Virus record (IMG/VR): IMGVR_UViG_3300032954_000018
Location: 1 to 54,164 of that record
DNA length: 54,164 nucleotides
Origin: a virus
Reading direction: 5' to 3' (one strand)
In this document: in pieces, positions 26,639 to 30,325 of the stretch
Position numbering within the stretch: position 1 is the stretch's first letter
How the letters are laid out: every line of letters starts with the position of its first letter
Notes under the pieces: generated by a model
What the model was told of the DNA's origin: nothing
What the model saw: the letters and a program-made list of their open reading frames with translations, nothing else
Databases searched by the model: none
Program-made: the position numbers and the translations under genes

Positions 26639-26914
26639 GTGGAACTATCACTATTCAAGCCCTCCCCTGAAAAAAATTATTGGATTATGAGTTTTCCTTA
26701 CTACTATACGTTTGTTTTCTATGGTACGGAAACCGAAGCTAAAGAGCTATTCATCCATAAATGCGAGTGGGAAGGCACCGGGACCATGCGAAAAGCCGAT
26801 CCTAGTAACGAACAGGATTCCGCTCTGGTCCGAGAAGAAATCATTAATGTACGGCTAGACAGAGACGCGGGAATCCCTAACCTGCCTTTCTTGCCGGGAC
26901 GAGGTTGGTTATGA
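26639..26914 (+). CDS. Hypothetical protein, 91 aa
   Basis: GTG 26639 with GGGGGT upstream. YYYTFVFYGTETEAKELFIHKCEWEG is a small alpha/beta sequence. Coupled to the release-factor-like gene. Unknown. Confidence 0.65.
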   Translation: MELSLFKPSPEKNYWIMSFPYYYTFVFYGTETEAKELFIHKCEWEGTGTMRKADPSNEQDSALVREEIINVRLDRDAGIPNLPFLPGRGWL

Positions 26915-27273
26915 AGCCAAAAACTATATCGAACGATGGTGCAAAACCAGTCTTGACCCTAACAGCTAAAGACTTTGTTTTCCAGACTTTCTGTACTGGC
27001 GGTAAAGGCGGTCAGCACCGGAATGCTAAACAGAATGGTGTGCGGTGTATCCATCCCCCTTCCGGGGCTAGAGGAGAGCACAGAGACGGGCGAGATCAAC
27101 ATCTAAATAAACGGGAAGCTTTCCGTAAATGTGCAGAATCTCCTGAAATGCAAGCATGGTTGAAGATCGAAACACTTAAAAGAGTGGGAAAAATAAGAGA
27201 TATCGAAAGAGCGGTAGAGGAGCAAATGGCTCCTGAAAACTTAAAAATAGAGGAAATTGATGGAAGTTGTTAA
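26911..27273 (+). CDS. Class I release-factor-like GGQ protein, 120 aa
   Basis: GGQ at residues 33-35 in TGGKGGQHRN, then VRCIHPPSGARGEHRDGRDQH and a helical basic tail, match the RF-1 catalytic domain. It lacks the codon-recognition domain, so it resembles ArfB/YaeJ or PrfH-type peptidyl-tRNA hydrolases that rescue stalled or damaged ribosomes. Usual ArfB length is about 140 aa. Start ATG 26911 with GAGG. It lies between a tRNA and metabolic genes, fitting phage control of translation. Confidence 0.88.
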   Translation: MKPKTISNDGAKPVLTLTAKDFVFQTFCTGGKGGQHRNAKQNGVRCIHPPSGARGEHRDGRDQHLNKREAFRKCAESPEMQAWLKIETLKRVGKIRDIERAVEEQMAPENLKIEEIDGSC

Positions 27274-28863: not shown

Positions 28864-29105
28864 TGCGCAACCAAGATACTTTTTCCAAAAATCTTTATGT
28901 GGTAGTTTGGGCAGGCTGTACTATTCCACTTTCTGGAAGAAGTTTTGATAACGAAGAAGAAGCAATAGAGATGTTTAAAGTTTGGATAGATCAACCGGGA
29001 ATACGGATTGAACGGATGATGGCGGCTTTCGTGTTTGATACTCTTTTTACAAAAACTACTTTTGAGAAATATATTGATGAAAACAATAGAAAATCTGGAA
29101 GCTGA
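28863..29105 (+). CDS. Hypothetical protein, 80 aa
   Basis: TAATG overlap upstream. LYVVVWAGCTIPLSG followed by helices. Its 3' end is overlapped by the HNH gene, which may have inserted here. Confidence 0.6.
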   Translation: MRNQDTFSKNLYVVVWAGCTIPLSGRSFDNEEEAIEMFKVWIDQPGIRIERMMAAFVFDTLFTKTTFEKYIDENNRKSGS

Positions 29106-29520
29106 AGAATGGAGACAAGTTAAAAATAGTCTTGATCTTTATCAAGTATCAAATAAAGGAAGAATAAAGAGAATATGTGAAACCCATGAACGATTGCTTA
29201 AAACCCCTCCTACTGCGTTAGGATATCTAAGATTTAATATTAGCATAAACAATAAATCAAAATCTAAGTACGTTCACGTAGCCGTAGCAGAAGCTTTTAT
29301 ACCAAATCCTGAGAAAAAACCCACAGTGAATCACAAAGACGGAGACAAGACTAACAATTGCGTAGGCAATTTAGAATGGGCTACCCGAAGTGAAAACAGC
29401 CAACATGCTTGGGACACCGGATTGTTTAGTCACGAAAAAATGAAATCTTCTCAATTATTAAGGCGGAAAAAAGAAAAAAGTTTGAAAGAAAACCTCATAA
29501 CACAGATTTTGGGTGTATAA
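29077..29520 (+). CDS. HNH homing endonuclease (NUMOD4), 147 aa
   Basis: EEWRQVKNSLDLYQVSNKGRIKR is a NUMOD4 DNA-binding motif; VNHKDGDKTNNCVGNLEWAT is the HNH catalytic core with the conserved NLEW. Mobile, free-standing endonuclease. It ends right at the noncoding tRNA-like cluster, and its stop codon lies in a TATAAT-like -10 (29516-29521). Confidence 0.85.
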   Translation: MKTIENLEAEEWRQVKNSLDLYQVSNKGRIKRICETHERLLKTPPTALGYLRFNISINNKSKSKYVHVAVAEAFIPNPEKKPTVNHKDGDKTNNCVGNLEWATRSENSQHAWDTGLFSHEKMKSSQLLRRKKEKSLKENLITQILGV

Positions 29521-29715
29521 TAGATACTAGGAGAAAATATGACGTAGAAGAATGTGAAATACTTCTATATATTTGTTACTTCCCGCATGTAGGTTCGACT
29601 CCTACCAGACTGTTGTAAGGTCTGTTCTCCTGTATCGGAAAAGGGAACCCGTAAGGGTGCTGAAAGATTAATTCCTGTATCTTGTGTTCTCCTATTTAAG
29701 TTTCGAGTAGCGATA

Positions 29716-29810
29716 GTTACAATTCCATCATTAGTTCGAATCTAATAAGCCCCCCAAAATTTATGGGGCTTACGCCTAGTTGGTTAGGCAGTATTGTAGC
29801 GCAAGTTCTC
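29716..29810 (+). tRNA. Circularly permuted tRNA-like gene, candidate 1
   Basis: Order: ACAAT (anticodon-stem 3' strand, 29719-29723), variable TCCATC, T-arm ATTAG-TTCGAAT-CTAAT (29730-29746), acceptor 3' strand AAGCCCC (29747-29753) followed by CCA, short linker, acceptor 5' strand GGGGCTT (29765-29771), D-arm GCCT-AGTTGGTT-AGGC (29774-29789), ATTGT (anticodon-stem 5' strand). The 3' half precedes the 5' half; all four stems pair. Weak points: positions 8-9 read AC not TA, the junction before the anticodon stem is 3 nt, and no anticodon can be assigned. Confidence 0.5.
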
Positions 29811-29932
29811 TCGGACAGTTTCGCAGGCCGTTTTGGTGATTCTGAGCGTTTTGCAAACGGGAGCAGCCCGATATAGCTGCTTAAGTTATAACCGCTTCGG
29901 CGGATTCAAATAGCGATAAAAACAGTTACTTC

Positions 29933-30012
29933 TTTCGCCGCCATCTTTGGCGAAATAGCTCAGCGGTAGAGCATCCACTTCATACGTGGAAGGTCGTGGG
30001 TTCGAATCCCAT
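29933..30012 (+). tRNA. Permuted tRNA-like gene with CAU anticodon, candidate 2
   Basis: TTTCGCC-G-CCA (29933-29943), a complete acceptor 3' strand with discriminator and CCA, then TCTTT, then GGCGAAA (29949-29955), perfectly complementary. The body is canonical: TA, D-arm GCTC-AGCGGTA-GAGC, anticodon arm TCCAC-TTCATAC-GTGGA (CAU), variable AGGTC, T-arm GTGGG-TTCGAAT-CCCAT ending 30012. What follows is TTTCAGT, which pairs at only four of seven positions. So the proper 3' acceptor strand lies upstream of the 5' end. Confidence 0.6.
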
Positions 30013-30050
30013 TTTCAGTTCTGTTTTGCCTGTTCTTTTGAATAATTTTC

Positions 30051-30096
30051 GGGAGTGTCCCTCAAGACTATCGGGTAAAAACCGAAACTCCCACCA
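30051..30096 (+). ncRNA. Minimal tRNA-like hairpin ending in ACCA
   Basis: GGGAGT (30051-30056) pairs with ACTCCC (30087-30092), followed by ACCA; between them TCGG-GTAAAAA-CCGA forms a 7-nt-loop arm in the T-arm position. Only 46 nt, with no anticodon arm. A minihelix-like element; may be chance or a remnant. Confidence 0.35.
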
Positions 30097-30113
30097 AGTT
30101 TGGGTAGTGTTCA

Positions 30114-30185
30114 TTACGAGTACATCAACTGGATAGATGAATTGTCATAGACAATGTGTTGCCGATTCAATCCCGGCCTCGTATG
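30114..30185 (+). tRNA. Degenerate or atypical tRNA
   Basis: Acceptor TACGAG/CTCGTA (6 bp), TA, D-arm CATC-AACTGGATA-GATG, anticodon region ATTG-TCATAGA-CAAT (4-bp stem, CAU out of register), T-arm GCCGA-TTCAATC-CCGGC with one mismatch. No CCA. Total 72 nt, one base short before the anticodon arm. It may be a decayed Met-type tRNA. Confidence 0.45.
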
Positions 30186-30243
30186 TTTTGTTCTCCCAAT
30201 AATTTTAAAGCCTGAGTAAATCCAAAGTGTAGTGGCTTTAATA

Positions 30244-30325
30244 GCAAGTAGTGAAAGTGTCAGTTACTTCTATATTTACTCAAAAATAAACAGAAAAAAC
30301 AACTGTCACGCTAGTTCTCTTGCAA
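30244..30325 (+). ncRNA. Structured RNA module, plus-strand copy
   Basis: GTGTCAGTTACTTCTATATT, an A-rich loop and AACTGTCACGCTAGTTCTC. CAGTT pairs with AACTG and the flanking GTG with CAC, with one mismatch. The boxes match the two minus-strand units at 277-425, including the CGCTAGTTC 3' box. Confidence 0.45.

Follow-up and report, generated by a model that had tools for sequence, protein, structure and literature searches.

The question raised by this locus is whether a phage can encode a tRNA in permuted order, with the 3' end of the molecule lying upstream of its own 5' end. Permuted tRNA genes are known from algae and archaea, where the junctions fall at tRNA positions 20/21, 37/38, 50/51 and 59/60, and a 2014 review counted 34 of them (PMC3978253). 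The locus lies in a 54,164-base IMG/VR virus record, which may be incomplete and which is here called the window over its whole length; the units described below and their parts are all on its + strand.

The body of the target gene, a tRNA-Met(CAU) covering tRNA positions 1-65, occupies 29949-30012. A canonical tRNA body with a CAU anticodon had been proposed in the preliminary description, and it was indeed detected by both ARAGORN and the Rfam tRNA model (56.2 bits at 29952-30016). The body consists of the 5' acceptor strand GGCGAAA (29949-29955), TA (29956-29957), a D-arm (29958-29972), an anticodon arm (29974-29990, with CAT at 29981-29983), a variable region (29991-29995) and a T-arm (29996-30012), and the anticodon arm is intact, with T33 and CAU. 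The strand directly downstream of the body, TTTCAGT (30013-30019), forms four Watson-Crick pairs and one G-U pair with the 5' acceptor strand, leaves two mismatches and is not followed by CCA, in agreement with the poor downstream pairing (4/7) noted earlier. In contrast, the upstream strand TTTCGCC (29933-29939) is complementary at 7/7 positions to 29949-29955 and is followed by the discriminator G (29940) and CCA (29941-29943), separated from tRNA position 1 by the 5-nt spacer TCTTT (29944-29948). Coordinates and pairing thus confirm the claim of a perfect upstream acceptor strand followed by G-CCA. In this layout the break falls between the T-arm and the acceptor stem (65/66).

When the two pieces were joined in silico, the resulting 75-mer was recognised by ARAGORN as a perfect tRNA-Met cloverleaf with an encoded CCA, and its fold energy was -26.0 kcal/mol, versus -17.2 for the linear form. 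The computed chance of a 7/7 match followed by NCCA within 45 nt is about 4e-5 per tRNA, and a 7-nt complement with NCCA no more than 60 nt upstream occurs at 3 of 54,096 window positions, one of which is the target. In 964 kb of fetched loci, a detector for the T-arm/acceptor-break layout responded to the target alone, and 650 kb of shuffled sequence gave nothing. Exact search of IMG/VR gave no second copy of the target hairpin, the sequence of which is known from one contig. The discriminator of the target is G73, which is unusual on a Met-type tRNA and argues against charging by MetRS.

The target is flanked upstream by CAAATAGCGATAAAAACAGTTACTTC (29907-29932; repeat families D1/D2 and motif scan), which carries the boundary motif TAGCGATA, and downstream by TTTCAGTTCTGTTTTG (30013-30028; inspection and motif scan), which carries the boundary motif AGTTCT. 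By inspection, CTGTTTT (30021-30027) could pair with AAAACAG (29919-29925); the register of this outer helix is ambiguous, being either CAAA/TTTG or AAAACAG/CTGTTTT.

The target, hereafter unit III, belongs to an array of units that spans about 800 bp of the window and also includes a second permuted tRNA-like unit. The array lies in approximately 1 kb without convincing genes, after an HNH/NUMOD4 gene (29035-29520) and before a conserved 200-aa gene (30521). Further upstream, at 26905-27273, the window encodes a protein with an RF-1 domain (GGQ), which is likely a peptide release factor for ribosome rescue. The second permuted unit, unit II (29719-29797; detector and fold), lies 180 bp upstream of the target and was absent from the preliminary description. 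It was found by a detector of T-arm, 3' acceptor strand, spacer, 5' acceptor strand and D-arm with a score of 34, and 541 kb of shuffled sequence contained nothing with that score. Its 5' part holds ACAAT (3' strand of the anticodon stem), a T-arm (29730-29746), AAGCCCC (29747-29753) and the spacer CCAAAATTTAT, and its 3' part holds GGGGCTT (29765-29771), a D-arm and ATTGT (5' strand of the anticodon stem). AAGCCCC and GGGGCTT pair at 7/7 positions and the anticodon stem ATTGT/ACAAT closes the ends, so that unit II, unlike the target, is broken at the anticodon. Positions 8-9 are AC rather than TA, there is no clean anticodon loop, and the joined unit II was not recognised as a tRNA by ARAGORN. 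An outer stem and boundary motifs were found by fold and motif scan in its flanks, TTCGAG-T-AGCGATAGTT (29702-29718) and AGCGCAAGTTCT-CTCGGA (29798-29815).

Similar boundaries recur downstream of the target. Unit IV (30100-30199; folds and motif scan) is a collinear tRNA-like element with a D-arm, a 5-nt anticodon loop and a T-arm, enclosed by the outer stem TTGGG/CCCAA, and unit V (30244-30322; folds and motif scan) is a hairpin with the stem GCAAG/CTTGC. Units II, III, IV and V, four units in 600 bp, share the same boundary motifs, TAGYGAWA-like upstream and GTTCT downstream, and their outer stems of about 4-7 bp differ in sequence from unit to unit. GTTCTC is found 5 times within 700 bp of the array, and the entire + strand has 20 occurrences. 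The interval from unit III to unit IV also holds, at 30052-30095, a mini tRNA-like fold with the sequence GGGAGT...ACTCCC-ACCA and a pair of small arms. Unit I (29522-29632; fold) is a possible decayed permuted unit, with the T-arm GTAGGTTCGACTCCTAC (29589-29605) followed by a CAGAC...GTCTG hairpin and closed by GATACTAGGAG/CTCCTGTATC; the permuted-tRNA detector gave no match to it. In a search of the array with Rfam at E up to 10, only tRNA was matched. Overall, the array looks partly decayed.

Related phages carry ordinary tRNAs at this place. The terminase of the window phage shares 87% identity with its counterpart in contig L002 and approximately 70% with those of L003, L005 and L006; among isolates in the phage collection, Tunturiibacter phage Tunturi_3 comes closest (25% identity), and no relatives were found via the SprT-like protein or the 228-aa protein. 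Collinear tRNAs (Pro, Ala, amber suppressor, Trp and others) occupy the syntenic place in L003, L005, L006 and L014. The tRNA clusters of L003, L005 and L006 have the same D-arm/T-arm consensus as the target, but these tRNAs are collinear, each with its own matching 3' strand. An ordinary collinear tRNA in relatives had been named earlier as grounds against permutation, and this holds in part: L003 and L006 do have collinear tRNAs in the syntenic cluster, but the similar one is an amber suppressor (CUA) and not an orthologous tRNA-Met.

One collinear tRNA of L003 (5995-6105) contains a predicted 39-nt insert in its anticodon loop (ARAGORN intron mode). The insert starts with GCAAGTCCTCTC, which is identical at 11/12 positions to GCAAGTTCTCTC of unit II, and has CTAGTGG at its far end. 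This single example, noticed post hoc, suggests that the boundary motifs may be those of a small tRNA intron, although CAAGTCCTCTC is present in an ordinary T-arm of L006 as well.

Several other features of these relatives were observed. A protein that by eye reads like peptidyl-tRNA hydrolase 2 is encoded at L003:5048-5368 and L006:1982-2314, with an in-frame TAG near the start of the gene and the amber-suppressor tRNA (CUA) adjoining; the window has only a truncated start of that frame (29538-29580), running into a T-arm. In a strongly conserved noncoding element, GAAGGATAAAGAGAT.GCGCCTCTTCTCCCGCCCTTAAGTGGACGGGTGTAGCTTAAAG (L003:5549-5620, L006:2543-2610, L014:5500-5580), a D-arm-like TAGCTTAAAG...GAGC comes after a CCCGCCC/GGACGGG hairpin, an arrangement that resembles a permuted acceptor. 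A second one, GGCTCCGCGCAGTCGCTACCTGCCGTTCACTAGGGT..CAGTCCCGTGAGAGAAACTG (L003:5640-5710, L005:355-435, L014:5605-5665), lies upstream of the 200-aa gene, and neither element had a match in Rfam.

Permuted tRNA genes were also found well beyond the window. A first scan of IMG/VR with the exact pattern CGCCNCCA-(2-20)-GGCGNNNTAGCTCAG gave 24 matches, among them 11 contigs with permuted tRNA genes, 9 of them distinct (L034 repeats L021, and L033 repeats L030). In these genes the T-arm lies directly 5' of the 3' acceptor strand (with a degenerate T-loop in L035), no matching 3' half is present downstream, and the acceptor strands pair at 7/7 positions in 10 of the 11 and at 6/7 in L019. All 12 matches to a second pattern were permuted; two had already appeared in the first scan, and three are copies of one another. 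The upstream neighbour in six of the first-scan set is a gene of one uncharacterised protein family, Pfam DUF7873. Among 80 DUF7873 loci drawn from IMG/VR, some of them near-identical, a permuted tRNA was present downstream of DUF7873 on the same strand in 69, located 88-475 nt past the stop codon. The 5' acceptor strand took 48 different forms across 54 records; pairing was perfect (7/7) in 44, and 51 had CCA at positions 74-76.

The permuted-tRNA detector selects acceptor pairing, with a small bonus for CCA, and does not use the anticodon stem. The anticodon stem and the flank helix provide independent evidence. Pairing of the anticodon stem across the break reached a score of 4.5 of 5 or more in 50% of own halves versus 7% of mismatched halves, and a flank helix of at least 8 bp was present in 61% versus 22%. 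The usual break in this class is in the anticodon loop, and the junction has a recurrent asymmetric loop, mostly 12-13 nt (GATTAGRCTRA-like) by 5-8 nt, beyond which the helix varies in sequence while pairing is kept. In these other phages, 4-43 nt lie between the 3' acceptor strand and the 5' one.

Such genes are present in cultured phages as well. One or two permuted tRNAs, none annotated as such, were found in 6 of 8 cultured phages examined. Carriers in culture include Arthrobacter phage Mimi (MN234211.2, loci near 98126 and 98280), Gordonia phages Keelan and Phendrix, Klebsiella phage Centimanus, Rhizobium phage RHph_TM21B and Vibrio phage D505; another permuted locus is near 61567 in the Gordonia phage record MN586014.1, and in Centimanus, an annotated 'tRNA-Stop(tta)' overlaps a permuted tRNA. 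Another array of permuted units was found in L038, a 178-kb contig that encodes RtcB, at L038:9400-10400, with a repeated TTACTGTGTTNGGCTTACATG-like motif. By inspection, its units are in tandem, a repeated CGACATA / TTACTG..YTACATG encloses a covarying helix, and one unit has a UUCG-capped acceptor stem in place of CCA. Two of these units are spaced by only about 80 nt, too little to accommodate a group I or II intron. A target-type pattern narrower than the viral one, which matches three true viral cases and the target, gave 3 matches in 84,980 prokaryote genomes, all in non-tRNA sequence. No papers on permuted tRNA genes in phages or on DUF7873 were found in open PMC, a scope outside which subscription papers and most preprints fall.

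The cross-pairing with an encoded CCA, the adjoining second permuted unit and the large class in other phages, including cultured ones, bear out the permuted arrangement claimed in the preliminary description; judged from sequence, it is almost certainly real at the target and not due to chance. The target belongs to a wider set of phage permuted tRNA or tRNA-like genes that is apparently undescribed so far.

Like the permuted tRNAs of red and green algae and of Thermofilum (PMC3978253, PMC3218864), the target has the 3' half upstream of the 5' half and ends that a helix could bring together, and the intervening sequence is short in both (1-74 bp in the known algal and archaeal genes, 5 nt in the target). 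The CCA is encoded, as in archaeal permuted tRNA genes (PMC3978253, PMC3218864). The target differs from the known genes in residing in a phage and in its 65/66 break, which PMC3978253 does not list for algae or archaea. The described algal and archaeal cases show a bulge-helix-bulge (BHB) motif at the termini, a feature separate from the gene order as such; on inspection of the predicted folds, the ends of the units in the array form a helix with larger internal loops, and no strict BHB was recognised there. The phage class is mostly of the anticodon-loop type among described junctions. Its DUF7873-associated members (for example in Mimi, Keelan and RHph_TM21B) resemble the target in having swapped acceptor strands, an encoded NCCA, a short spacer and pairing flanks; they follow DUF7873 and have an anticodon-loop break, shared by unit II, and a GAUUAGRCURA-type internal loop, whereas the target is broken at 65/66 in a window without DUF7873. 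The target is thus a new variant of a known gene arrangement, with a 65/66 break absent from both the phage class and the described set. Two-piece tmRNA (Rfam RF01849-51, RF04321; PMC11915505) resembles the target in its permuted tRNA-like domain, which enzymes of tRNA processing open at the acceptor, but the target has a full D-stem and anticodon arm, and no tag frame was identified in it. As a family for the target, two-piece tmRNA was rejected, no tmRNA covariance model reaching threshold.

The proteins that might act on these RNAs were also considered. A search of the window record for DUF7873 (PF25283) found none. The DUF7873 structure model (pLDDT 83) showed no recognisable fold and no convincing match in the PDB or BFVD. 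From the gene arrangement, this protein may bind or process the adjoining permuted tRNA. Among 19 permuted-tRNA phage records, RtcB was encoded in 5, PF09511 in 3 and a PF09414 ligase in 7 (one below cut-off), and no ligase family was common to all permuted-tRNA phages examined. RtcB, RNA_ligase and T4-type ligase were all absent from the window record, which is possibly a fragment; its relative L014 (record G006, 112 kb) encodes a PF09414 RNA ligase.

On the present evidence, we favour with moderate confidence the reading of the target as a circularly permuted elongator-type tRNA-Met gene, in which positions 66-76 (TTTCGCC-G-CCA) are encoded 5 nt before position 1. From the observed arrangement, pairing, encoded CCA, recurrence and conservation we infer a route that involves boundary cutting, ligation and opening by RNase P. 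In the transcript, the acceptor stem would form as a hairpin (29933-29939 with 29949-29955), and pairing of the unit flanks (AAAACAG/CTGTTTT; AGTTCT and TAGCGATA motifs) would bring the T-arm end beside position 66. An endonuclease would then cut at both boundaries and an RNA ligase would join 65 to 66, so that the pre-tRNA became circular like those of algal permuted tRNAs; the joined RNA would read through GAATCCCAT directly into TTTCGCCGCCA (T-arm end ...CCCAT, then TTTCGCCGCCA). Finally, RNase P would cleave before G29949 and an exonuclease would trim to the encoded CCA. If cutting and ligation did not occur, a two-piece nicked tRNA could result, as in two-piece tmRNA. Expression of the target as a functional permuted tRNA seems fairly probable; against function we count the unique 65/66 break, G73, the lack of a ligase in the window, the decayed-looking units I and II together with the truncated frame, and the ordinary tRNAs in relatives.

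Some of these points would also be expected if the locus were a decayed relic of a tandem duplication, in which a first tRNA-Met copy lost positions 1-65, a second lost its 3' end, and no functional product is made. The halves overlap at the break (TTTC in unit III, GTAGCGNNAGTT in unit II), as tandem duplication predicts, and an origin by this process fits these short overlaps; the degenerate look of the neighbouring units and the intact collinear tRNAs of relatives point the same way. Yet in units II and III the surviving pieces make up a single tRNA whose two breaks coincide in tRNA position, which is not expected from independent decay, and the same kind of layout is kept with covariation in many phages. 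The gene may well have arisen by duplication and still have a live product. We therefore regard a dead relic as unlikely, though it deserves serious consideration. It is improbable that the target instead yields an unjoined permuted tRNA-like domain, a two-piece, CCA-ended RNA made by RNase P and trimming, held by pairing in the manner of tmRNA and not serving as a decoding tRNA. The nearly universal encoded CCA of the class (51/54), the flank helices and conserved 12-13 x 5-8 nt internal loop of its DUF7873 members, the many members that on inspection have no clear U33 anticodon loop, and the want of a single ligase family common to the phages would suit such an RNA, but the anticodon arm of the target is intact, its break leaves an 11-nt 3' strand attached by flanks only, and no permuted-tmRNA family reaches the Rfam threshold.

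ARAGORN and Rfam call the target body linear, as they would for an ordinary tRNA with a degenerate 3' end and a coincidental leader hairpin upstream; the two mismatches, the G-U pair and the missing CCA downstream, set against an upstream complement so rarely expected by chance, make this very improbable. A permuted group I intron-exon arrangement would yield circular exons, and a group I intron is present elsewhere in the related phage L002 (50.5 bits), but the approximately 75-140 nt between units are too short for a group I core and cmscan of the array gave no group I match, even with E up to 10 (a split, genome-permuted core is hard to detect in this way), so that we consider this explanation extremely remote.

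A broader reading, which we offer tentatively and consider possible but doubtful, is that phages widely encode permuted tRNAs excised and circularised via a non-BHB, non-group-I RNA motif made of boundary motifs and covarying closing helices, often with DUF7873, that in the window lineage the same small boundary motifs also bound the predicted collinear tRNA intron of about 40 nt in L003, and that the window array would represent a new class of tiny tRNA introns engaged in back-splicing, including the never-described 65/66 break.

Permuted tRNA genes were formerly thought to be rare, confined to a few algae and one archaeal lineage and tied to BHB splicing (PMC3978253), whereas here they are apparently conserved across many phages. 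Annotation has passed over them, since tRNA finders either overlook them or report false tRNAs, and they look like an overlooked way for phages to encode tRNAs. As some carriers are in culture, direct testing in laboratory phages is possible. To our knowledge bacteria have no BHB endonuclease, so that one of two things must exist, a new splicing route or a two-piece tRNA-like RNA.
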